Assembly (NCBI GenBank): GCA_023701135.1
Contig: JAMPXP010000001.1
Coordinates: 310,001-374,000, forward strand
Reading direction: 5' to 3'
Length of the DNA stretch: 64,000 nt
Origin: Desulfobacula sp.
GTDB lineage: Bacteria > Desulfobacterota > Desulfobacteria > Desulfobacterales > Desulfobacteraceae
Part shown: positions 30,748-40,115 of the stretch, in pieces
Numbering within the stretch: position 1 is the stretch's first letter
Layout of the letters: every line of letters begins with the position of its first letter
Program-made: the position numbers and the translations under genes
The notes under the pieces: model-generated
What the model saw: only the letters and a program-made list of their open reading frames with translations
What the model was told of the DNA's origin: nothing
Databases searched by the model: none

Positions 30748-32082
30748 ATGAAAAGAAGAATGCCCTTTCTTAAAGTCATTTTTATTCTCATCTTTATTGG
30801 TTTTGGATCAGGCAGTGTCTCGTCCTTTGCCGGCGAAAATTTATTTTCAGACGGGGTAGCGTTATTTAATGCCGGAGACTTTCAAGCATCCTATGATCAC
30901 CTGTTAAAAGCATTTGAGCATGAACCGGAAAATCTCGACCTCAATTTTTATCTTGGCAGGGCCGCCTTTGAGACCGGACAATATGAAATGGCCATTATGG
31001 CCTTTGAAAGAATCCTGATTTCCTCACCCCGTGAAAACCGTGTAAAGCTTGAAATGGCAAGAGCTTTTCAAAAGCTCGGGGCCAATAACACTGCCATCCA
31101 ATACTGCCTTGAAGTACTCGCATCCAACCCTCCTGAGGCTGTAAAGAATAATATCCAGTCTTTTTTAGCCCATATCAAAAAGACAGAGCAAACACATTTT
31201 TTGAATGGACAGCTATCCGCCGGTATTGACTGGAACAACAATATCTGGGCTTCCCCCTCCGTCGGCACCATCAATACCATTATCGGTAATGTCGATTTAA
31301 CAGGCGCTTCCTCAATAAAAACCAGGGACTGGATTTATAATTCAACTCTTGGAATTCAGCATGCCTACCGCTTCCCTTTGTCTGACCATTTCTGGAAAAC
31401 AGAGGCGACCCTTTATAATGGCGTCTATGATAAAACAAATGCCCTTGATATCCAATACATTGGGGGTAATACAGGCCCGGAATTGGTTTCCGGCAAAAAC
31501 CGATGGGGGGTCAGATTCCTGTTCAACCATATCGACCTTGGCGATACGGAATATCAAAACAGCCTCGGGTTCAAACTCTTGTTGGACCATAGTTTCAATC
31601 CGTATTTTCAGGGCCGTACCGCCCTGAAAATCGAAGAAAAGGATTTCCCCAATAACCCTGGAAAAGATGCAAAAAGCATATCCTTAAGTCATGATATAAA
31701 CTTTTTGTTTAAACATAACTGGGTCAGTCTGGGATTCAAAGCAGAACGGGAAAATGCCGATGACGATGAAAACAGCTATAAACGATATGGTTCCAACGTA
31801 TCCATTTCCCGGGAATTGCCATTCGATATGACCGGCTCTGCCGGGTATGCATACCAGTTTTCCACCTATTCAGAGCCGGGGTCCCTTTTCAATAAAAGCC
31901 GTGAAGATCACCAGCATTCAGCCGGTGCCGGTCTTAAAAAAATATTGTGGCAGTCTTCGGACAATTCGGGCCGGACTGCTTCATTAAATTTAAACTACCA
32001 GCATATCTGGGCATTTTCCAATATTGAACTCTATGAATATGAACAGGATCTTGTCCAATTATTTCTCCTGTATGCTTTTTAA
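30748..32082 (+). CDS. Slam-like outer membrane protein (TPR plus DUF560 barrel)
   Basis: 444 residues. A signal peptide (cleavage near SSFAGEN, about residue 28) is followed by TPR repeats (about 30-140). The linker VLASNPPEAVKNNIQSFLAHIKK and GIDWNNNIWASPS is characteristic of surface lipoprotein assembly modifiers (Slam, type XI secretion). The remainder shows alternating beta-strands ending in VQLFLLYAF, a proper outer membrane C-terminal signal. Slam proteins move specific barrel-containing cargo to the cell surface. The next gene, 2 bases downstream, encodes a protein with a TbpB-like C-terminal barrel, the expected cargo type. Family call is good; transport of that partner is inference. 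Confidence 0.8.
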   Translation: MKRRMPFLKVIFILIFIGFGSGSVSSFAGENLFSDGVALFNAGDFQASYDHLLKAFEHEPENLDLNFYLGRAAFETGQYEMAIMAFERILISSPRENRVKLEMARAFQKLGANNTAIQYCLEVLASNPPEAVKNNIQSFLAHIKKTEQTHFLNGQLSAGIDWNNNIWASPSVGTINTIIGNVDLTGASSIKTRDWIYNSTLGIQHAYRFPLSDHFWKTEATLYNGVYDKTNALDIQYIGGNTGPELVSGKNRWGVRFLFNHIDLGDTEYQNSLGFKLLLDHSFNPYFQGRTALKIEEKDFPNNPGKDAKSISLSHDINFLFKHNWVSLGFKAERENADDDENSYKRYGSNVSISRELPFDMTGSAGYAYQFSTYSEPGSLFNKSREDHQHSAGAGLKKILWQSSDNSGRTASLNLNYQHIWAFSNIELYEYEQDLVQLFLLYAF

Positions 32083-32084
32083 GG

Positions 32085-34298
32085 ATGGCAACCGTGAGGC
32101 GTGATAAAATCAGTATCAAACAATTTACCATTATGGTTATTTTTCTTTTTACAGTTTCAACCGCTCTTGCCGATCAGAATATGCCCATCGGGAAAGTGGT
32201 GGCCCTCAGGGGAGAAATTGTTGCTGAAAACACGGATTCGATCCAAAGGGTACTGTCTATCAATGCGCCCGTCTTTCTAAACGACACCATCAAAACACGG
32301 CAGGGCCGGATCCAACTCATATTCAACGACAACACATTGATGACACTGGGCAGCAGTACTGAAATAAAGCTGACAAAATACTCATGGAAAACCGAAGACA
32401 AAAATTCTGCCATGGAAACCCGGATCGAGGAAGGCAGCTTCAGAATTATGGGGGGTGCCATCACCCGCATTGCGCCTGATAATTTTAAAACCCATACCCC
32501 CTCAGGCACCATCGGCATCCGAGGCTCCATGTATGCAGGCGTGGTAAAAGGAACAAGCCTTTCTGTTGTTTTCCAGGGGGGCCGGGGTATTTATATCAAA
32601 AATGATATGGGTTTTGTTAGCATCAGTGCGCCGGGATTCGGGACCCAGGTGAAAAGTCCGGACCAGGCGCCTGAGCCGCCGCGAAAAATGACCCAGGAGG
32701 AACTGCGTGTATTTGAAACCGTACTGGCGGCAAATCCGGAAAATACCCCTTCTGATCCGGCATCGGACACAACGGCATCAGGGACTCCGGAATCGTCATC
32801 CGAATCTTCCGGGACTCAACCAGCCGATGGCCCTGCCGAAACCGTTGGGTTATTATCAGAGCCTGCACCCGATAGTGCCCCTCTCGGTTTGTTTTCAACA
32901 AATGAAATATCTGATATAACTGAAACAACTCTGGCCTCCGCCCAGGCAACCCTTAATACAACCTTGGCTCCCACCGGAGTGGAGCAAGAAATCTTGTCCA
33001 TATTGCTTGATCTTGGATATACCGGTTCCTTAACCCAATCTTCTTTCGTCCCCTCAACCGGAATTTGGGTTTATTCCGGTAAAATGAAAAATTTGATCAC
33101 CAGCGAGCCCCTTCAAAATATGAAATTCATTGTAAACTGGGATAATGGACGGATCATCGGACTTGAAGAAATTAGCGCAGGAATGGGAAAGATCGATACC
33201 GGATTCGGCTTTGGAACTATTTCCGCCTCAGGAACGATTTCAGGACTTCGGATTTTAGGCTCTGATGGGGCCGACGGATCCGGAATCATCAGGGCCATGA
33301 CCGGAAACGAAACCTTTGGTCATTTTTACGGTTTGGATCAGTCAGGCCTGGGCCTTGCCATGGAAGGGTATGATATCAATCTTCAGAATCAAGCGGATCA
33401 ACTCTTCTGGAAAGACCTTTCAGCAGCCATCGTCAGCAGTAAAACCGCCAATACGAATTCCGGAACGGAATCCTGGAAAGGATTTTTTACCGGTGTTGCC
33501 GAAGACATGGCGTCACCCAATACGAACCGGCGAATCTTCACCAACAACAGTTCCGGTGATTTTGCTTTAACCATCAATAAAGACGCCGGCACATTGACCG
33601 GGTCTTTGTCCGGAGAGGATTTTTTAAATGCTGCGAATCAGATTACAGGATTAACCATCGGCGGAGGCGGCAGTGATTCGGTCTATATCACCGATAAGAT
33701 CATGGGTGCTTCCCTCAGCGGCACCTCTGTCATTGATATCAACGGCAATACAGGAAACCTTAAATCCCATGGCAATTTCATGATCGCATCCGATACCCCT
33801 CCCCTTTCCACCTATACCACCTGGGGTTACTGGGAAGCGGCCTATTCAGAGCCGGTGACCGGAAAAAATTATCATATCCATGTACCGGGCTCCTTATGGA
33901 TCGCAGGCAATCCCACCCCTTCAACCACCATCACCAGCCTGATAGGGACTTCCTTTACCGGCACCTATACCGGAAAAGCAGAAGGGGTCATGTTTGATAA
34001 TACAAGCCAGATGACACGAATGACCAATGGAACCACCAACCTGGCCATTGATTTTTCTTCTACCGCCCCCACTCCGGTTTCAGGGAGTATTTCATTTACC
34101 GAGGTCAATCTGCCCGTCACCAGTTCGAGCCCGGCCTATGTAGGCACCTCCGGTTTTTCCGCCACCATACCCAGCGCCGTCTCAAGTGCTGTAAACGGGA
34201 CCTTTTACGGCCCCGGCGCCGAAGCTGCCGCAGGCAATTTTTCCGCCACCATGGCCGACGGCAAACAATATCACGGCATTTTCGCAGGCAACCGTTAA
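32085..34298 (+). CDS. FecR-domain protein with TbpB-like C-terminal barrel
   Basis: 737 residues. A type I signal peptide ends at about residue 30 (ALADQ; no lipobox Cys). The FecR domain (about 35-190) includes LSINAPVFLNDTIKTRQGRIQLIFNDNTLMTLG and THTPSGTIGIRGSMY. A Pro/Ser/Thr/Glu linker (about 200-290) follows, then a long beta-rich part. The last 35 residues, with VNGTFYGPGAEAAAGNFSA and a terminal YHGIFAGNR, match the C-lobe barrel ending of transferrin-binding protein B and other Slam cargo. FecR usually senses iron uptake, but in deltaproteobacteria FecR proteins are often paired with CHASE2 sensors, as here. It lies 2 bases after the Slam-like gene and about 27 bases before the cyclase gene. 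Confidence 0.8.
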   Translation: MATVRRDKISIKQFTIMVIFLFTVSTALADQNMPIGKVVALRGEIVAENTDSIQRVLSINAPVFLNDTIKTRQGRIQLIFNDNTLMTLGSSTEIKLTKYSWKTEDKNSAMETRIEEGSFRIMGGAITRIAPDNFKTHTPSGTIGIRGSMYAGVVKGTSLSVVFQGGRGIYIKNDMGFVSISAPGFGTQVKSPDQAPEPPRKMTQEELRVFETVLAANPENTPSDPASDTTASGTPESSSESSGTQPADGPAETVGLLSEPAPDSAPLGLFSTNEISDITETTLASAQATLNTTLAPTGVEQEILSILLDLGYTGSLTQSSFVPSTGIWVYSGKMKNLITSEPLQNMKFIVNWDNGRIIGLEEISAGMGKIDTGFGFGTISASGTISGLRILGSDGADGSGIIRAMTGNETFGHFYGLDQSGLGLAMEGYDINLQNQADQLFWKDLSAAIVSSKTANTNSGTESWKGFFTGVAEDMASPNTNRRIFTNNSSGDFALTINKDAGTLTGSLSGEDFLNAANQITGLTIGGGGSDSVYITDKIMGASLSGTSVIDINGNTGNLKSHGNFMIASDTPPLSTYTTWGYWEAAYSEPVTGKNYHIHVPGSLWIAGNPTPSTTITSLIGTSFTGTYTGKAEGVMFDNTSQMTRMTNGTTNLAIDFSSTAPTPVSGSISFTEVNLPVTSSSPAYVGTSGFSATIPSAVSSAVNGTFYGPGAEAAAGNFSATMADGKQYHGIFAGNR

Positions 34299-34325
34299 CC
34301 ATGGGCATATGGGGTGATACTGCAT

Positions 34326-36590
34326 ATGCCTGATCGCCTTTTGGCTCGTTTTAACCTGCCATCCTTTTGTTTAGGATGTTTTCTCATCCTCCTGTTTTGT
34401 CTGATCCAATATGGTTTCAGCAGTCAAAAACCAGCCCTTCTGGGAACCATTGACAACCGTATCATGGATATGATGTTCAATATCAGAGGCCCCCAGCCGG
34501 TTTCAGAAGACATCATCATTGTTGATATTGATGAAAAAAGCCTGAAGGCCCTGGGTCAATGGCCTTGGCCCAGAAACATCCTTGCCGATTTAACCAACCG
34601 TATATACCTAAATCAGGCCCGGGCCATTGGATTTGATATCGTATTTGCAGAACAGGACAGAACCTCACCGGCCTATTATTTCAAACACCTGGATACTTCC
34701 GTCACCCGTAACCTTCCTATGGATATTCTTTCCGAAGTATTACAAAATGAACAGTTCGATTATGATGCTGTCTTCGGGAAGGCCCTTTCGATTGGCCCCA
34801 CTGTTCTGGGCTACGCTTTTCAGTTAAAAGATGACGGCCTGAAGACAACGGCTCAGACGCCCTTCCCCTCCGGAACCATTGGTCTTAAACCTGAGGGTCA
34901 AACATTTTCAAACACTTCTCTTATCCCTGCCTATCGTGCCATAGCAAATTATTCAACCGTTGCCATGGCTCAAAGTGAAGGGTTTATCAATATGGGAACC
35001 GATGAATCCGGGACTACCCGACAGGTTCCCTTATTCATGACCCTGGATGATATCCCTTATCCTTCCCTGGCCCTGGAAGTTTTCCGTATTGGTATGGGAA
35101 TTTCTCATGTGACCCTCCACGTGTCCGATAGGATCAAAACCCCCAAGGCATTGATTCTAGGGATACAGATGAACGATCGATTCATTCCCACGGACGGTTT
35201 TGGAGAAATTTTCCTCAATTACAGGGGACCGGCTTACAGTTACACCTATATTTCTGCCGTAGATGTGCTGAAACAAAGCTCTTTTCCGATTCTTAAAAAT
35301 AAATTCGTTCTGATCGGCACTTCCTCCACAGGCCTTTTTGATCTTAAGGCCACACCCTTTTCTACGGCAGTTCCCGGTATTGAAATCCAGGCCAATATTA
35401 TTGACAACCTTCTCCAATCCGATTCATTTGAATACGATATGTTTACCGAAATAGGATTAAATTACACCTTTATTGTTGTAGGAGGTTTTCTTTTATCGCT
35501 GATTCTATCGTTTCTAGGCCCGGTGGCCGGAGGAATAAGCGCCCTGGTTCTCTTTTCAGCCGGTATCACGTGGAATTATTATTATTTTTTCCTGAACTGC
35601 CGCCATGTGGGAATTACCTATCCCATCCTTACTTGGGTAATCCTATTATTGATCATCAGTATTTTTAATGCATTCAGGGAAGGCAAAACAAAGAAATTCA
35701 TTCAGAAGGCATTTTCCCACTATGTGGCTCCGGATGTCGTGTCTCAGCTCCTAAAAAACCCTAAAGGCCTTTCCCTTGCGGGCGAAGAAAAGGAATTAAC
35801 GGTTTTTTTCTGTGATATCAGAGGATTCACCAGCATATCCGAAAAAATGAATTCCCATGACCTTGGAAATTTCATGAACCATTATTTGTCCGCCATGAGT
35901 CGAATCATCATGGAAAACAAGGGGACTGTGGACAAATTTATCGGAGATGCCATCATGGCTTTCTGGGGTGCACCCCATGACGAACCCGGCCATGCCCTTA
36001 AAGCCGTTTCTACGGCACTCAAACTGGTCAACGAACTCAAGTCTCTCCAAGACGCCTATCAAAAGATGAATTTACCGGAAATTTCCGTCGGGATAGGAAT
36101 CAATACCGGAATCATGAGTGTCGGAAACTTCGGCAGCAAAGAAAGATTTGATTATACCGTCATGGGTGACAATGTGAATCTTGCATCACGGCTTGAAGGA
36201 GCAAACAGGAATTATGGAACTTCCATTCTGATCTCAAGGGCCACCAGAGATCAAATAAAGGATGCTGTTTTTTGCAGGTATATTGATAAAGTCCAGGTAA
36301 AAGGGCGTGAAGAACCGGTTGATCTGTATGAACCCTTGGTGGAAGGCCACCCTCCGGAAGAATTGTCTAAGGAGGTCAAACTGTTTGAAAATGGAATCAG
36401 TGCCTACCAGACCATGGATTTTGAAAAAGCCGACCATATCATGGCCCTGCTGAATAAAAACCGTCCTTGTCTGCTTTATCAATCCTATATGGACAGGATT
36501 TATGGATTCATGAAAGCTCCGCCCCCTGATTCGTGGAACGGCATTGAAAGGCGAGGTCAACTCATCGTTAACAGACTTTTCACCAAATAG
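34326..36590 (+). CDS. CHASE2-domain adenylate/guanylate cyclase
   Basis: About 754 residues from ATG 34326; a GTG at 34314 is the alternative start. An N-terminal membrane helix precedes a periplasmic CHASE2 domain (about 40-380: IDNRIMDMMFNIRGPQPVSEDIIIVDIDEKSLKALGQWPWPR, then FVLIGTSSTGLFDLKATPFS), then three more helices and a class III cyclase domain. The cyclase keeps FFCDIRGFTSISEK (metal Asp), GDAIMAFWGAPHDE (second metal Asp) and GDNVNLASRLEGANR. Signals in the periplasm probably control cyclic nucleotide production. A roughly 80-residue tail with a helical TPR-like feel follows. It ends 5 bases from the convergent PPi-PFK gene. Confidence 0.88.
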   Translation: MPDRLLARFNLPSFCLGCFLILLFCLIQYGFSSQKPALLGTIDNRIMDMMFNIRGPQPVSEDIIIVDIDEKSLKALGQWPWPRNILADLTNRIYLNQARAIGFDIVFAEQDRTSPAYYFKHLDTSVTRNLPMDILSEVLQNEQFDYDAVFGKALSIGPTVLGYAFQLKDDGLKTTAQTPFPSGTIGLKPEGQTFSNTSLIPAYRAIANYSTVAMAQSEGFINMGTDESGTTRQVPLFMTLDDIPYPSLALEVFRIGMGISHVTLHVSDRIKTPKALILGIQMNDRFIPTDGFGEIFLNYRGPAYSYTYISAVDVLKQSSFPILKNKFVLIGTSSTGLFDLKATPFSTAVPGIEIQANIIDNLLQSDSFEYDMFTEIGLNYTFIVVGGFLLSLILSFLGPVAGGISALVLFSAGITWNYYYFFLNCRHVGITYPILTWVILLLIISIFNAFREGKTKKFIQKAFSHYVAPDVVSQLLKNPKGLSLAGEEKELTVFFCDIRGFTSISEKMNSHDLGNFMNHYLSAMSRIIMENKGTVDKFIGDAIMAFWGAPHDEPGHALKAVSTALKLVNELKSLQDAYQKMNLPEISVGIGINTGIMSVGNFGSKERFDYTVMGDNVNLASRLEGANRNYGTSILISRATRDQIKDAVFCRYIDKVQVKGREEPVDLYEPLVEGHPPEELSKEVKLFENGISAYQTMDFEKADHIMALLNKNRPCLLYQSYMDRIYGFMKAPPPDSWNGIERRGQLIVNRLFTK

Positions 36591-36595
36591 CCGGG

Positions 36596-38680
36596 TTAAA
36601 TGGAATTGAGCATCAGGGTAATGGGTCTGTCCTCTTCTGAATTCCCTGTGAACCTCACCGGCCCCGGGCGTCTGTATTTGTCCGGGTTGGATCCGGCTGC
36701 CAGCCATTCCTCTCTTAAGGCTTTGAACACCTTGAAGGCATTGGAATTTGAATCCACAAGGGCCTTTTCTATGACCAGTTGCATCTTTCCGTTTCTTTCC
36801 TCAAGATGCATCAGTTTTGCAATGGGAATTCCGATGGGCTCCCATGTGTCGAATTTTTTTTCCAGGTTTTTAACGGCAGCCATCTGACCGGTAGCGCCAT
36901 TGGCAATGAGGTGAAACGCGATCATTCCAAGATTATAACTGTAATTGCAGTCAAAATGGGTAGGGTCCGAACCCCGGCCGTCGTATCCATAAAAATGGGT
37001 CTGGGTTTTGAACTTGGCTTCAGATTTTTTATATATTGTAAGAATAGGAGCCGGCAAAGGGTCTTCCGGTGAAATTAATTCACTGCCGACAAGGGCCTGT
37101 TTCAACGTTTTAAGGGAAATGATGGATTCTTTGATGAGCAGATAGGAATCCTCCGGGTTTTTAAATATGGCCTTGGCATATAGATCCGGCATCATATTTG
37201 CTTTTTCCATGAGGGAGTTGAAATAGGACCGCTCGATCCCGATTTTATATTTGCCCTGCTCCTTGAGCGTATTTAAATATTCCTTGACCATATCCATGAC
37301 GATTTTTTCTGTTTTAACCTGGGAAAACTGAAAATTGCCATGGGTATCCCTCTCCACCAGGAGCCCTTCCTGGAAAAATGAGGGCAGTTGGCTGAAGAGA
37401 TCGTCGTCCCTCAGATTCCAGATGGGGAACTGGCCTTTATCCGCCATCCCCCGGGCCAGCCGTCTCAAATATTCCAGTTTGTCCGTCAGGGTCGGAAAAG
37501 AGGAATGAAAATGATGATCATGGATATAATTGTAGTCTGCGATGATCTTATTGAGCTTGATGATAAAAACCTGAATTTCATTGATAAATTCAAGAATCCC
37601 TTCCGGAATGATGATGACCCCGTAATTTTTTCCACAGGCCGCCCGTCGGACAATGGTGTCACAGATGAGCCGGGATAAATGCCGAAGGGTCATGCCATAT
37701 GCATTATAATCGATGATTCCGGTTTCATTTGCTTTTTCAATTCTCTTTTGATCAATATAATCTGCAAGCTCCTCACCAATAAGGGACAGGTTGGCATGGG
37801 TCTGAAAGGCGCACTCCAGGGTCAAATGGCTTGCCACCCGGCCCATAACCTTGCAGATATGCCAGTATTTGATATTGGAATCGGCATCCGTGGTCAAATT
37901 GCTGATGTTCTGCGAAAAGGCCCTGGCCGCCGAATGAAACCCAAAAGATATGGCACAGAGTATCTCTCCGTCATTGGTTTTCACCTGGATATCCCCGTCA
38001 ATGGTTTTTGGAACTCCGATGACCTTAATCCCGCTGTCTTTGAAATGCTGGGCAAGAAAGGCGGCATTGGTGTTTGAATCGTCTCCGCCGATTACCACCA
38101 GGGCATCCAGTTTCAATTCCGTACAGGTTTTCAGGGCGGCCTCCATTTTCTGCGTGGAATCGATCTTGGTTCTTCCGGTCCTGATCATGGAGAACCCTCC
38201 CATGTTTCTGTAGGCGTCTACAAGACTGCTGGTGATTTCAACATATTTGGAATCCAGGAGCCCGTCCGGACCAAAAAGAAATCCATAGAGCCTGGAGTCG
38301 GGGTTTTGTTTTTTCATTTCATCAAACATCCCTGAAATGACATTATGCCCTCCGGGAGCAGGCCCGCCTGAAAAAACCACACCGATATTACGGCACCTGG
38401 AAAAGTCTGCCTTTTCACTCTCGGATTTATCCTCATCCGGAACAAGAAACTGAACTTCGTTTTTGCTGATATCCGGCAGTGCCCGTTCTGCTTCCATGTT
38501 TAAACCGAACCGGAATTCCGGAGCATCTTTCAGACGGGTATACCGGCTTGAAAAAATTTTTATCTTCTTTGGAGAAAATGCTCTTCTTTCAATGGTCTCT
38601 GTATTCACATCAGAGGTCACATGGATTGTTTTGGGATGGTTCAGCAAAGATTCAAGGGGGTTCAACTTCAAGGACGACAT
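36596..38680 (-). CDS. pyrophosphate-dependent phosphofructokinase (long type)
   Basis: 694 residues from ATG 38680, placed by AGGAG with a 6-base spacer; a TTG 18 bases upstream is not needed. The PFK fold shows FSGGPAPGGHN (104-113), GGDDSN (198-203) and PKTIDGD (224-230), then MGRVASHLTLE. GGDD in place of GGDG and a Lys-Thr-Ile-Asp motif are marks of PPi-using enzymes. About 90 extra residues lie before the fold. It phosphorylates fructose-6-phosphate reversibly, useful in an anaerobe. The usual Asn in PKTIDND is Gly here. No symbol is assigned because pfp groups differ. Confidence 0.85.
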   Translation of the reverse strand: MSSLKLNPLESLLNHPKTIHVTSDVNTETIERRAFSPKKIKIFSSRYTRLKDAPEFRFGLNMEAERALPDISKNEVQFLVPDEDKSESEKADFSRCRNIGVVFSGGPAPGGHNVISGMFDEMKKQNPDSRLYGFLFGPDGLLDSKYVEITSSLVDAYRNMGGFSMIRTGRTKIDSTQKMEAALKTCTELKLDALVVIGGDDSNTNAAFLAQHFKDSGIKVIGVPKTIDGDIQVKTNDGEILCAISFGFHSAARAFSQNISNLTTDADSNIKYWHICKVMGRVASHLTLECAFQTHANLSLIGEELADYIDQKRIEKANETGIIDYNAYGMTLRHLSRLICDTIVRRAACGKNYGVIIIPEGILEFINEIQVFIIKLNKIIADYNYIHDHHFHSSFPTLTDKLEYLRRLARGMADKGQFPIWNLRDDDLFSQLPSFFQEGLLVERDTHGNFQFSQVKTEKIVMDMVKEYLNTLKEQGKYKIGIERSYFNSLMEKANMMPDLYAKAIFKNPEDSYLLIKESIISLKTLKQALVGSELISPEDPLPAPILTIYKKSEAKFKTQTHFYGYDGRGSDPTHFDCNYSYNLGMIAFHLIANGATGQMAAVKNLEKKFDTWEPIGIPIAKLMHLEERNGKMQLVIEKALVDSNSNAFKVFKALREEWLAAGSNPDKYRRPGPVRFTGNSEEDRPITLMLNSI

Positions 38681-38702
38681 ATCAGCTCCTGTCTTCAATC
38701 GT

Positions 38703-40115
38703 TCAATTTACAATAACCTGGTTTCTTCCGTTTGCCTTGGCCTGGTAAACCGCAATATCCGCTCGTTCAAAAACCTCTTTAGGGTGTTTATCCCCTTCCC
38801 TTACCTGGGAAACACCGATACTGACGGTCACTTTGACTTTCTCTTTTTTATAGATAAATTCTAATTTTTCTATGGTCTGCCGGATTTTTTCAGCAACCTC
38901 TCTACCGCCGTTGAGATCGGTTTCCGGCATAACTACCACAAATTCTTCTCCGCCATACCTGGACAACATATCATTCTGTCTCAATAGCGGCAGGGTCCGC
39001 TTTATAATTTCCTGAAGGCATTTGTCACCAATGGCATGACCATATTGATCGTTGATGGATTTAAACCGATCCGCATCCATCAAAAGCAGTGAAAAACCAG
39101 TGCCATACCTAAAGAATCTTGCCATTTCATCTTCCATTTTTTTGTCATAGGCCCGCCGGTTAAAGGCACCGGTCAACTGGTCCAGGTTCAGCTTTTTTTC
39201 CAGCTCTTCCGAATAACGGGTGGCCTCATCCAGGTCCTGTTTCAATTTTGTGAAACCGGATTTGAAAACCTGCCTTTCCTTTTCTATGTAATCCCTTATG
39301 GCCTTATCCTTGGCCTGTTTTTTCTGAAGGGCATTTTCAATGACAGATAGTCTCTCTGCAACCTGAATTTTCAGCATATCCAGATTGGATGCCACGCCGG
39401 ATGTCTGTTTCAACCGCTTCAACTCAGATTCCAAAACAGATTCAAAATGGTCGCTGGTTTGAAACAGGGTGTCCGTATGCTGATAACCGACATCAATACT
39501 GGATTCTATGTCCAGAATTTTTCCGACCACTTCCTGAACAAAGGCATTGACCTTTGACCGTTCCTGGTTGGTATCGGAAATATAATTGAAAATCAGATCA
39601 AAAACAGTTTTGCGGATATCACTGATATCTGAAGGGTTTTCTGCTGTTTTAATTCCGGCTGCAATATGATCCAGTTTGCCGGTATATTTTTTATCCAGAT
39701 TGGAGCGAAGCGTGTTCACGACTTCATGGTAGCTCTGCTTGTAGTCATCAATAAAAGAAAAGGGGTCTTTTTTTTTAAAAACGGAAAATAGGGTTTTTTT
39801 CTGCTTTCCGCCGGGCGGAACAAATTCTTCTTTGAGAACAGCGGTTTTTAATTGGTCAAGGATATAGGCAATCCTTCCCTCGGATTCTCCTTTTTTCAGG
39901 GCCTGGCTTAGGTCCTTACAGGTATCGGAGAACACATCCCCTCCAATTGCGACCGAATCAATAATGATGGGAAAAGATTTCCGATACATCTGGTTCATCT
40001 TTTCAAACCGTTCTTCGACCGTGTCCAGTTCCTTTAACAGAGCATCCTTCTGGGATTGAAGCTTTTTTACCTGACCCTGAAGGTCGGCTATTTTTTCATC
40101 AAAAGGAGAATTCAT
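38703..40115 (-). CDS. diguanylate cyclase with N-terminal coiled-coil region
   Basis: 470 residues. Residues 1-300 are mostly helical with coiled-coil patches and no membrane segment; the GGDEF domain (about 305-470) has LDQLTGAFNRRAY, metal-binding MDADRFKSIND and active-site GGEEF (388-392). The inhibitory site RQND (379-382), five residues before GGEEF, matches RxxD, so product inhibition is likely. It makes cyclic di-GMP from two GTP in the cytoplasm. It precedes the PPi-PFK gene by 22 bases on the same strand. Confidence 0.9.
   Translation of the reverse strand: MNSPFDEKIADLQGQVKKLQSQKDALLKELDTVEERFEKMNQMYRKSFPIIIDSVAIGGDVFSDTCKDLSQALKKGESEGRIAYILDQLKTAVLKEEFVPPGGKQKKTLFSVFKKKDPFSFIDDYKQSYHEVVNTLRSNLDKKYTGKLDHIAAGIKTAENPSDISDIRKTVFDLIFNYISDTNQERSKVNAFVQEVVGKILDIESSIDVGYQHTDTLFQTSDHFESVLESELKRLKQTSGVASNLDMLKIQVAERLSVIENALQKKQAKDKAIRDYIEKERQVFKSGFTKLKQDLDEATRYSEELEKKLNLDQLTGAFNRRAYDKKMEDEMARFFRYGTGFSLLLMDADRFKSINDQYGHAIGDKCLQEIIKRTLPLLRQNDMLSRYGGEEFVVVMPETDLNGGREVAEKIRQTIEKLEFIYKKEKVKVTVSIGVSQVREGDKHPKEVFERADIAVYQAKANGRNQVIVN

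Follow-up and report, generated by a model that had tools for sequence, protein, structure and literature searches.

A candidate trans-envelope signalling unit in Desulfobacula: a Slam-like barrel, a FecR protein with TbpB-like lobes, and a CHASE2 cyclase

Three consecutive genes of Desulfobacula sp., located in the 64,000-nucleotide stretch analysed here (the window; assembly GCA_023701135.1, contig JAMPXP010000001.1, positions 310,001 to 374,000), encode a predicted outer-membrane barrel protein of the SlipAM/Slam family, a FecR protein whose C-terminal part models as two TbpB-like lobes, and a CHASE2 nucleotide cyclase. Genomes with a close relative of gene 1 mostly keep the three genes together, and the lobes evolve separately from the FecR domain that precedes them in the protein. 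The original prediction for this DNA had taken the set for a surface-exposed or translocated FecR protein that signals to cyclic nucleotide production. It is partly supported: its family assignments, folds, and three-gene order hold, and it is plausible that the FecR protein is surface-exposed or exported and signals to the cyclase.

All three open reading frames (ORFs) lie on the plus strand. Genes 1 and 2 are separated by 2 bases, as had been stated; the gap of about 27 bases given for genes 2 and 3 applies only to an ATG start at 34326, the distance to the GTG start being 15 bases. Gene 2 stands 2 bases from a Slam gene, as cargo genes of the type XI secretion system (T11SS) stand beside theirs, and also beside a CHASE2 receptor gene, as in FecR-CHASE2 pairs. 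The features are the following (window coordinates; pLDDT, predicted local distance difference test).

30748..32082, plus strand: gene 1, predicted Slam-like outer-membrane protein, 444 residues (SlipAM, PF04575; AlphaFold2 model)
30829..31185, plus strand: predicted periplasmic TPR domain of gene 1, residues 28-146 (TPR families; model helices)
31195..32079, plus strand: predicted 14-strand barrel of gene 1, residues 150-444 (model strands; nearest solved barrel CymA)
32085..34298, plus strand: gene 2, FecR protein with TbpB-like lobes as modelled, 737 residues (PF04773; model pLDDT 84)
32184..32651, plus strand: FecR domain of gene 2, residues 34-189 (model; PupR match)
32730..32966, plus strand: disordered linker of gene 2, residues 216-294 (pLDDT <50 throughout)
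33012..33449, plus strand: first lobe barrel of gene 2, residues 310-455 (factor H binding protein match)
33462..34295, plus strand: second lobe of gene 2, handle and C-terminal barrel, residues 460-737 (TbpB C-lobe and NHBA matches)
34314..36590, plus strand: gene 3, CHASE2 class III cyclase, 758 residues (PF05226, PF00211)
34413..35429, plus strand: CHASE2 domain of gene 3, residues 34-372 (PF05226; same place in the genome-wide CHASE2 scan)
35781..36314, plus strand: cyclase catalytic domain of gene 3, about residues 490-667 (PF00211; CyaB closest)

Domain content and predicted folds

Gene 1 had been described as a TPR plus barrel protein of the Slam pattern, and this is borne out by Pfam, where it matches SlipAM with an E-value of 8.5e-13 (48.9 bits, cut-off 22) as well as TPR families, and by an AlphaFold2 model (pLDDT 91.9) in which TPR helices at residues 28-146 are followed by 14 long barrel strands. 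Slam barrels consist of 14 strands. SlipAM is matched at E 0.001 by 33 of 37 aligned relatives of gene 1, and the Slam-specific TPR model PF24575 by 16 of the 37 at the same threshold, gene 1 itself scoring 15.5 bits against a cut-off of 35.2. The nearest solved structure to the modelled barrel is CymA (Z 22.2, root mean square deviation (rmsd) 3.2, 273 aligned), with OmpG also among the nearest; no solved Slam structure is among the matches listed for the model. On this model, gene 1 is a predicted SlipAM/Slam family protein with a TPR domain and a 14-strand barrel.

The gene 2 protein matches Pfam FecR (PF04773) with 29.9 bits (cut-off 24), and its model, with a mean pLDDT of 84, comprises a FecR domain (residues 34-189), a disordered segment (216-294), and beta lobes reaching up to residue 737. 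The FecR domain resembles the cell-surface signalling domain of PupR (Z 15.4, rmsd 2.8, 137 aligned), and the linker has at least 44 residues in those relatives in which both of its ends can be placed. The TbpB-like C-terminus proposed originally is real in the model and larger than the 35 residues claimed, since Foldseek and a second structure comparison place lobes over residues 310-737. TbpB structures rank first in Foldseek (E 1e-9). Residues 315-455 match the barrel of factor H binding protein (Z 13.2, rmsd 2.2, 113 aligned), residues 463-737 the TbpB C-lobe (Z 14.6, rmsd 4.3, 196 aligned), and the C-terminal barrel NHBA (Z 16.2, rmsd 3.0, 145 aligned), which is itself a Slam cargo. The structure predictions suggested as a check thus agree for both proteins, the lobes with TbpB-like folds and gene 1 with a 14-strand barrel. 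When whole-length TbpB is superposed, the rmsd is 17-18, so the lobes are TbpB-like singly and their arrangement is different. Residues 310-737 of gene 2 are accordingly described as modelling as two TbpB-like lobes.

In sequence profiles, the likeness is plainer among the relatives than in the window protein. The window protein scores 20.5 bits with TbpB_B_D (under the cut-off of 26) and 32 bits, E 1.4e-7, with the NCBIfam family "Slam-dependent surface lipoprotein" (slam_lipo, under the cut-off of 80). Among 26 aligned gene 2 proteins, the window one included, TbpB_B_D is matched by 22 at E 0.001 (best 6.6e-10) and slam_lipo by 21 at E 0.01 (best 2e-16), and the TbpB_B_D cut-off of Pfam is reached in the relatives at loci L041, L042, L043, and L046. 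A search of PDB sequences with a profile of the 26 proteins returned 17 sequences: 10 TbpB or transferrin-binding proteins, 3 NHBA, 1 haemophore, 1 hemophilin, 1 lactoferrin-binding protein B (weak, E 0.095), and 1 anchoring domain, which matches the FecR part. PMC12282271 lists TbpB, LbpB, and hemophilins among Slam cargo. The window protein has a Sec-type signal sequence and, as had been noted, no lipobox; a loose lipobox pattern occurs in 4 of 48 FecR relatives, and only at L066 does it lie within a signal-peptide-like stretch.

The first half of the FecR domain (window 32184-32413) resembles the cell-surface anchoring (retention) domain 5ix9 of a giant adhesin (profile E 1.3e-5; rmsd 1.0 over 67 columns). 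The LapA-type retention module NF033682 scores 15.5 bits with gene 2, below its cut-off of 50, and is matched at E 0.01 by 22 of the 26 aligned proteins. It is matched just as well by some of 9 FecR proteins taken from different contexts (3 at E 0.01, 5 at E 0.1), for which reason the likeness was rejected as a sign of a periplasmic plug; it reflects general FecR likeness and gives no verdict on topology. Retention modules are perhaps FecR relatives; a literature search combining the two terms gave no paper.

Gene 3 was correctly recognized as a CHASE2 nucleotide cyclase, with 191.7 bits for CHASE2 and 82.1 bits for Guanylate_cyc, both over the cut-offs. The closest solved relative of its catalytic domain is Pseudomonas CyaB (E 5.5e-43), and the alignment with CyaB shows that the metal aspartates, the lysine of DKF, the threonine of YT, and the asparagine and arginine of NLASRLE are kept. 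We take these to be the two metal aspartates, the lysine-threonine adenine pair, and the asparagine-arginine pair, respectively, and from these residues the product is expected to be cyclic AMP (cAMP) rather than cyclic GMP. The source genome encodes two HTH_Crp_2 proteins over the cut-off, which are possible cAMP receptors.

Conservation of the gene order

A genome scan with a Slam alignment yielded 57 loci, in which Slam genes were called close when they reached a profile E <1e-45, the profile being built from 15 proteins found via a FecR query. A FecR gene is adjacent to 36 of the 38 distinct close Slam genes, and the other two (L064 and L079) lie at contig edges, their contigs ending 9 and 185 bases past the Slam gene. 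CHASE2 is found within 9 kilobases (kb) of 27 of the 38, and 29 have a cargo barrel on the FecR protein. When only the 28 close genes with at least 5 kb of downstream sequence are counted, FecR is adjacent in all 28, CHASE2 lies within 9 kb in 26, and the cargo barrel is present in 25. The two sets lacking CHASE2 are L062 and L082, the latter with 1.6 kb remaining past FecR; the three lacking the barrel are L058 (a run of N), L068 (split), and L083. The barrel of L068 has an ORF of its own, which a frameshift might explain. The scan also returned 13 distant Slam genes, all from gammaproteobacteria, Xenorhabdus and Providencia among them, and none of the 13 is accompanied by FecR, CHASE2, or cargo barrel.

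Because the close profile had been seeded by FecR neighbours, a second, FecR-independent sample was drawn by searching 395 genomes of the phylum with the SlipAM family of Pfam. SlipAM matches occur in 49 of them, at 55 places (4 of which score under the Pfam cut-off), and the 54 places outside the window were examined. Our own profile finds FecR as immediate same-strand neighbour in 32 of these 54, and Pfam FecR exceeds its cut-off also beside L116, L131, L135, and L146, which gives 36 of 54. CHASE2 is present in the fetched stretch in 26 and together with FecR in 23. As CHASE2 occurrences number 124, in 99 genomes, we estimate the probability of a chance CHASE2 neighbour within 9 kb at <1%.

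The synteny survey proposed with the original prediction thus finds the three genes together in most close relatives, and the set is patchy overall. A match reaching the lobe region of gene 2 exists in at least 17 of 291 genomes of the class, 2 of the 15 other genomes of the genus being counted in this number. The set is also present in the cultivable Desulfospira joergensenii DSM 10085 (L056). The set is kept where a close gene 1 relative occurs, and most genomes of the phylum are without a SlipAM gene. One locus, L076, is labelled Planctomycetota, and the order of TPR, FecR, and cyclase genes recurs on plasmids of Shinella (L148) and Paracoccus (L163). The FecR protein of Shinella reaches 1.2e-8 with slam_lipo, under the cut-off; its TPR-barrel partner shows no SlipAM match and meets the Slam barrel profile weakly (3e-4). 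In the source genome of the window, SlipAM occurs in one gene, FecR in two, and CHASE2 in three.

Proposed signalling across the envelope and rival explanations

Our preferred reading, held tentatively and at slightly less than even chances, is a trans-envelope signalling unit in which Slam exports the lobes, FecR stays periplasmic, and cAMP synthesis changes. Gene 1 would be a Slam-type outer-membrane translocon carrying both TbpB-like lobes to the cell surface, with the N-terminal FecR domain remaining in the periplasm and the disordered linker threading the Slam barrel. Ligand bound or lost by the lobes could then alter the contact between FecR and the CHASE2 domain of the inner-membrane cyclase, and the altered contact would change cAMP synthesis; export by gene 1, the threaded topology, the FecR-CHASE2 contact, and the direction of the signal are what we infer here. 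If this is true, Slam (type XI) secretion, which has been studied mainly in host-associated bacteria, would be joined with CHASE2-cyclase signalling, the Slam translocon would have a sensing role outside host association, and cargo prediction would extend to relatives of sulfate reducers. The arrangement also suggests a way for something happening on the cell surface to drive CHASE2, a domain for which few signals are known.

An outer-membrane protein combined with FecR and a CHASE2 output is a kind of system that is already known. FecR-CHASE2 neighbours, given in the original prediction as known in bacteria, are indeed described from Burkholderia (PMC5192318), from Campylobacterota (PMC9239204), and for NsrA-CyaK (PMC7529298, PMC13001267). 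NsrA of Sinorhizobium meliloti is reported to have a C-terminal barrel and to be needed for signal transduction to CyaK (PMC7529298, PMC13001267). Its sequence, which we examined, has 1219 residues with FecR and TPRs, and the gene lies directly before that of the CHASE2 cyclase CyaK. In both systems FecR and TPR parts are encoded directly ahead of a CHASE2 cyclase, but NsrA unites FecR, TPR, and barrel in a single chain, in which a scan found neither a SlipAM match nor TbpB-like cargo lobes. NsrA acting through CyaK is a parallel for the signalling unit proposed here. Campylobacterota possess CHASE2 adenylate cyclase clusters with FecR-CHASE2 signalling and an outer-membrane protein (PMC9239204); compared by description only, they differ in that a phosphodiesterase is described and Slam or cargo goes unmentioned in the available text. 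In the BiofilmReg operon of Burkholderia (PMC5192318), a FecR protein is encoded beside a CHASE2 receptor as in the window, but FecR is joined to LysM and CHASE2 is carried by a histidine kinase; the terms "outer membrane" and "barrel" are absent from the main text of that paper.

To type XI secretion (Slam/DUF560) with TbpB-type cargo, the window set is linked by a gene for a TPR domain and predicted 14-strand SlipAM barrel beside modelled TbpB-like handle-barrel lobes. It differs in that the cargo starts with FecR, has no lipobox, and is followed by a CHASE2 cyclase. Two T11SS surveys use none of the words FecR, CHASE2, cyclase, or Desulfo- in their main text, and a literature search of titles and abstracts found no Slam barrel with TbpB-like cargo as the outer-membrane part of FecR-CHASE2 signalling. 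Within the literature searched, the claim that the three-part set is undescribed therefore stands; it does not extend to the FecR-CHASE2 half with an outer-membrane partner, which has been described (PMC9239204, PMC7529298, PMC13001267).

Pairwise evolutionary distances were compared among 32 complete triads, FecR-query loci included and shared ancestry uncorrected. FecR distances correlate with those of CHASE2 (0.70), the Slam barrel (0.70), and the TPR domain (0.66), whereas the C-terminal cargo barrel correlates at 0.21 with FecR, 0.32 with CHASE2, and 0.51 with the other lobe. The FecR-CHASE2 correlation exceeds that of barrel and CHASE2 in 300 of 300 subsamples. FecR is on average 53% identical, CHASE2 50%, the Slam barrel 34%, and the two lobe regions 31 and 41%. 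It is clear that the lobes evolve apart from the FecR domain of their own chain, and the break in the distance pattern lies near the disordered linker. In its simplest reading this suggests a membrane boundary at the linker, with FecR inside together with TPR and CHASE2 and the lobes outside.

Several observations weigh against the proposed signalling unit. FecR distances correlate with those of the catalytic domain at only 0.32. Partial correlations are 0.27 for barrel and CHASE2 and 0.23 for FecR and CHASE2, and the strongest partial-correlation partner of FecR is the Slam barrel (0.47); simple and partial correlations disagree, and a special tie between FecR and CHASE2 is not clear. Swapping of lobes could give a similar decoupling. 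At L062/L043, a FecR protein with barrels has no CHASE2 within 8 kb or more downstream. Finally, at L083, and in most cases at distant SlipAM genes, the FecR partner has no recognisable cargo barrel, so the role of the barrel protein may be to support FecR and not to export lobes.

In an unlikely alternative, gene 1 is a receptor and not an exporter: its TPR domain would hold FecR in the periplasm, the signal would run from barrel through TPR and FecR to CHASE2, as in NsrA, and the lobes would stay inside as an extra binding part. SlipAM-family genes that adjoin FecR without a cargo barrel, L083 included, fit it, as do NsrA, with FecR, TPR, and barrel in one chain and no Slam cargo, and the FecR distances that track both TPR and Slam barrel. 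Against it stand the lobes, which in the close group match known Slam cargo folds, are kept in 25 of 28 sets, and evolve apart from FecR.

We consider it improbable that the whole FecR protein is a secreted or surface-bound Slam cargo with FecR as N-terminal effector, the cyclase being co-transcribed for another reason or sensing something else. Slam cargo is described that differs in its N-terminal domains or that is soluble and unlipidated (PMC12282271, PMC8406197), and one of the 48 FecR proteins has a lipobox-like motif in a signal-peptide-like stretch. Against full export, FecR recurs with CHASE2 on other outputs, namely a histidine kinase in Burkholderia (PMC5192318), an HD domain at L109, and cyclases in Campylobacterota (PMC9239204), and a FecR partner of a periplasmic CHASE2 would be useless outside.

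Highly improbable, in our view, is an export checkpoint, in which FecR would meet CHASE2 only while awaiting export and the cyclase would report a busy or blocked exporter. The same anatomy and gene order would serve it, as would the Sec-type signal sequence without lipobox of the window protein, but nothing in the sequences gives it an advantage over the split topology, and it requires neither a long linker nor decoupled lobes.

Variation among SlipAM loci and genomic context

FecR is a partner of 23 of 37 distant SlipAM genes and a recognisable cargo barrel of only 1 of the 37, so FecR partnership is wider than the cargo relationship. At L083 a close Slam gene stands beside a 285-residue FecR protein without barrel, at L066 (L066:9372-15530) a 2052-residue FecR protein with three successive lobe-barrel units adjoins Slam and a CHASE2 cyclase, and L087 has two FecR-cargo genes. 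At L109 (L109:4266-9169) the SlipAM gene has on one side the gene for a FecR-like protein (23.5 bits, narrowly missing the cut-off) and on the other that for a CHASE2 protein bearing an HD domain in place of a cyclase, and at L112 (L112:7108-10145) a Slam gene is followed by one for a 513-residue protein with a cargo-like barrel (own profile, 1e-10), in which neither FecR nor any Pfam match was found. Taken together with the distant SlipAM genes, these loci indicate that FecR is the steadier partner and that lobes and output vary. On a tree built from 95 barrel proteins by a quick method and with long branches, 12 changes account for the label "FecR with cargo barrel", versus 31.1 in shuffles, and 40 of the 41 rows so labelled fall in one group of 55.

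There is also a broader proposal, which we regard as unlikely: many SlipAM barrels of the phylum would be FecR signalling partners, the Slam barrel of the close group would be the channel of a permanently threaded surface receptor controlling a cyclase, and export of free or lipid-anchored cargo would be a specialised use of an older FecR-linked machine.

An apparent FecR-CHASE2-cyclase fusion of 1230 residues at L058 and L136 (the same gene) was rejected as a scaffold artefact because its ORF contains a run of N, and L096, with partial domains in short ORFs, was excluded from the argument. At L043 (L043:10193-16470), the FecR protein with cargo barrels is followed by histidine kinase- and response regulator-like proteins, as judged by eye. 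Short TPR-only proteins of 139-158 residues matching the Slam TPR profile (L090:2251-3837, L093:5729-7322, L097:7980-9590, and L099:7872-9396) are encoded ahead of short FecR proteins (324-367 residues) without Slam or cargo barrels, and the available stretches of these four loci contain no CHASE2. At two of the four, L090 and L097, the following ORF has 1900 or at least 2280 codons. The other FecR gene of the source genome (L049:6115-10899) encodes more than 1000 residues and lies behind a gene for a GAF-domain cyclase without CHASE2.

Upstream of the triad, genes were read as ahbC, hemB, and ahbD from their translations by eye, with no family scan. A heme link was considered and dropped: ahbC-, hemB-, and ahbD-like relatives occur in only 6, 6, and 7 of 109 loci, some of them the same genome twice, and we do not claim a heme function for the triad. 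L112 lies near relatives of these three genes. Downstream, at window 36596-40115 on the minus strand, phosphofructokinase-like and GGDEF-type genes (translations likewise read by eye) converge on the triad, and their relatives are found in 5 and 4 of the 109 loci, respectively.

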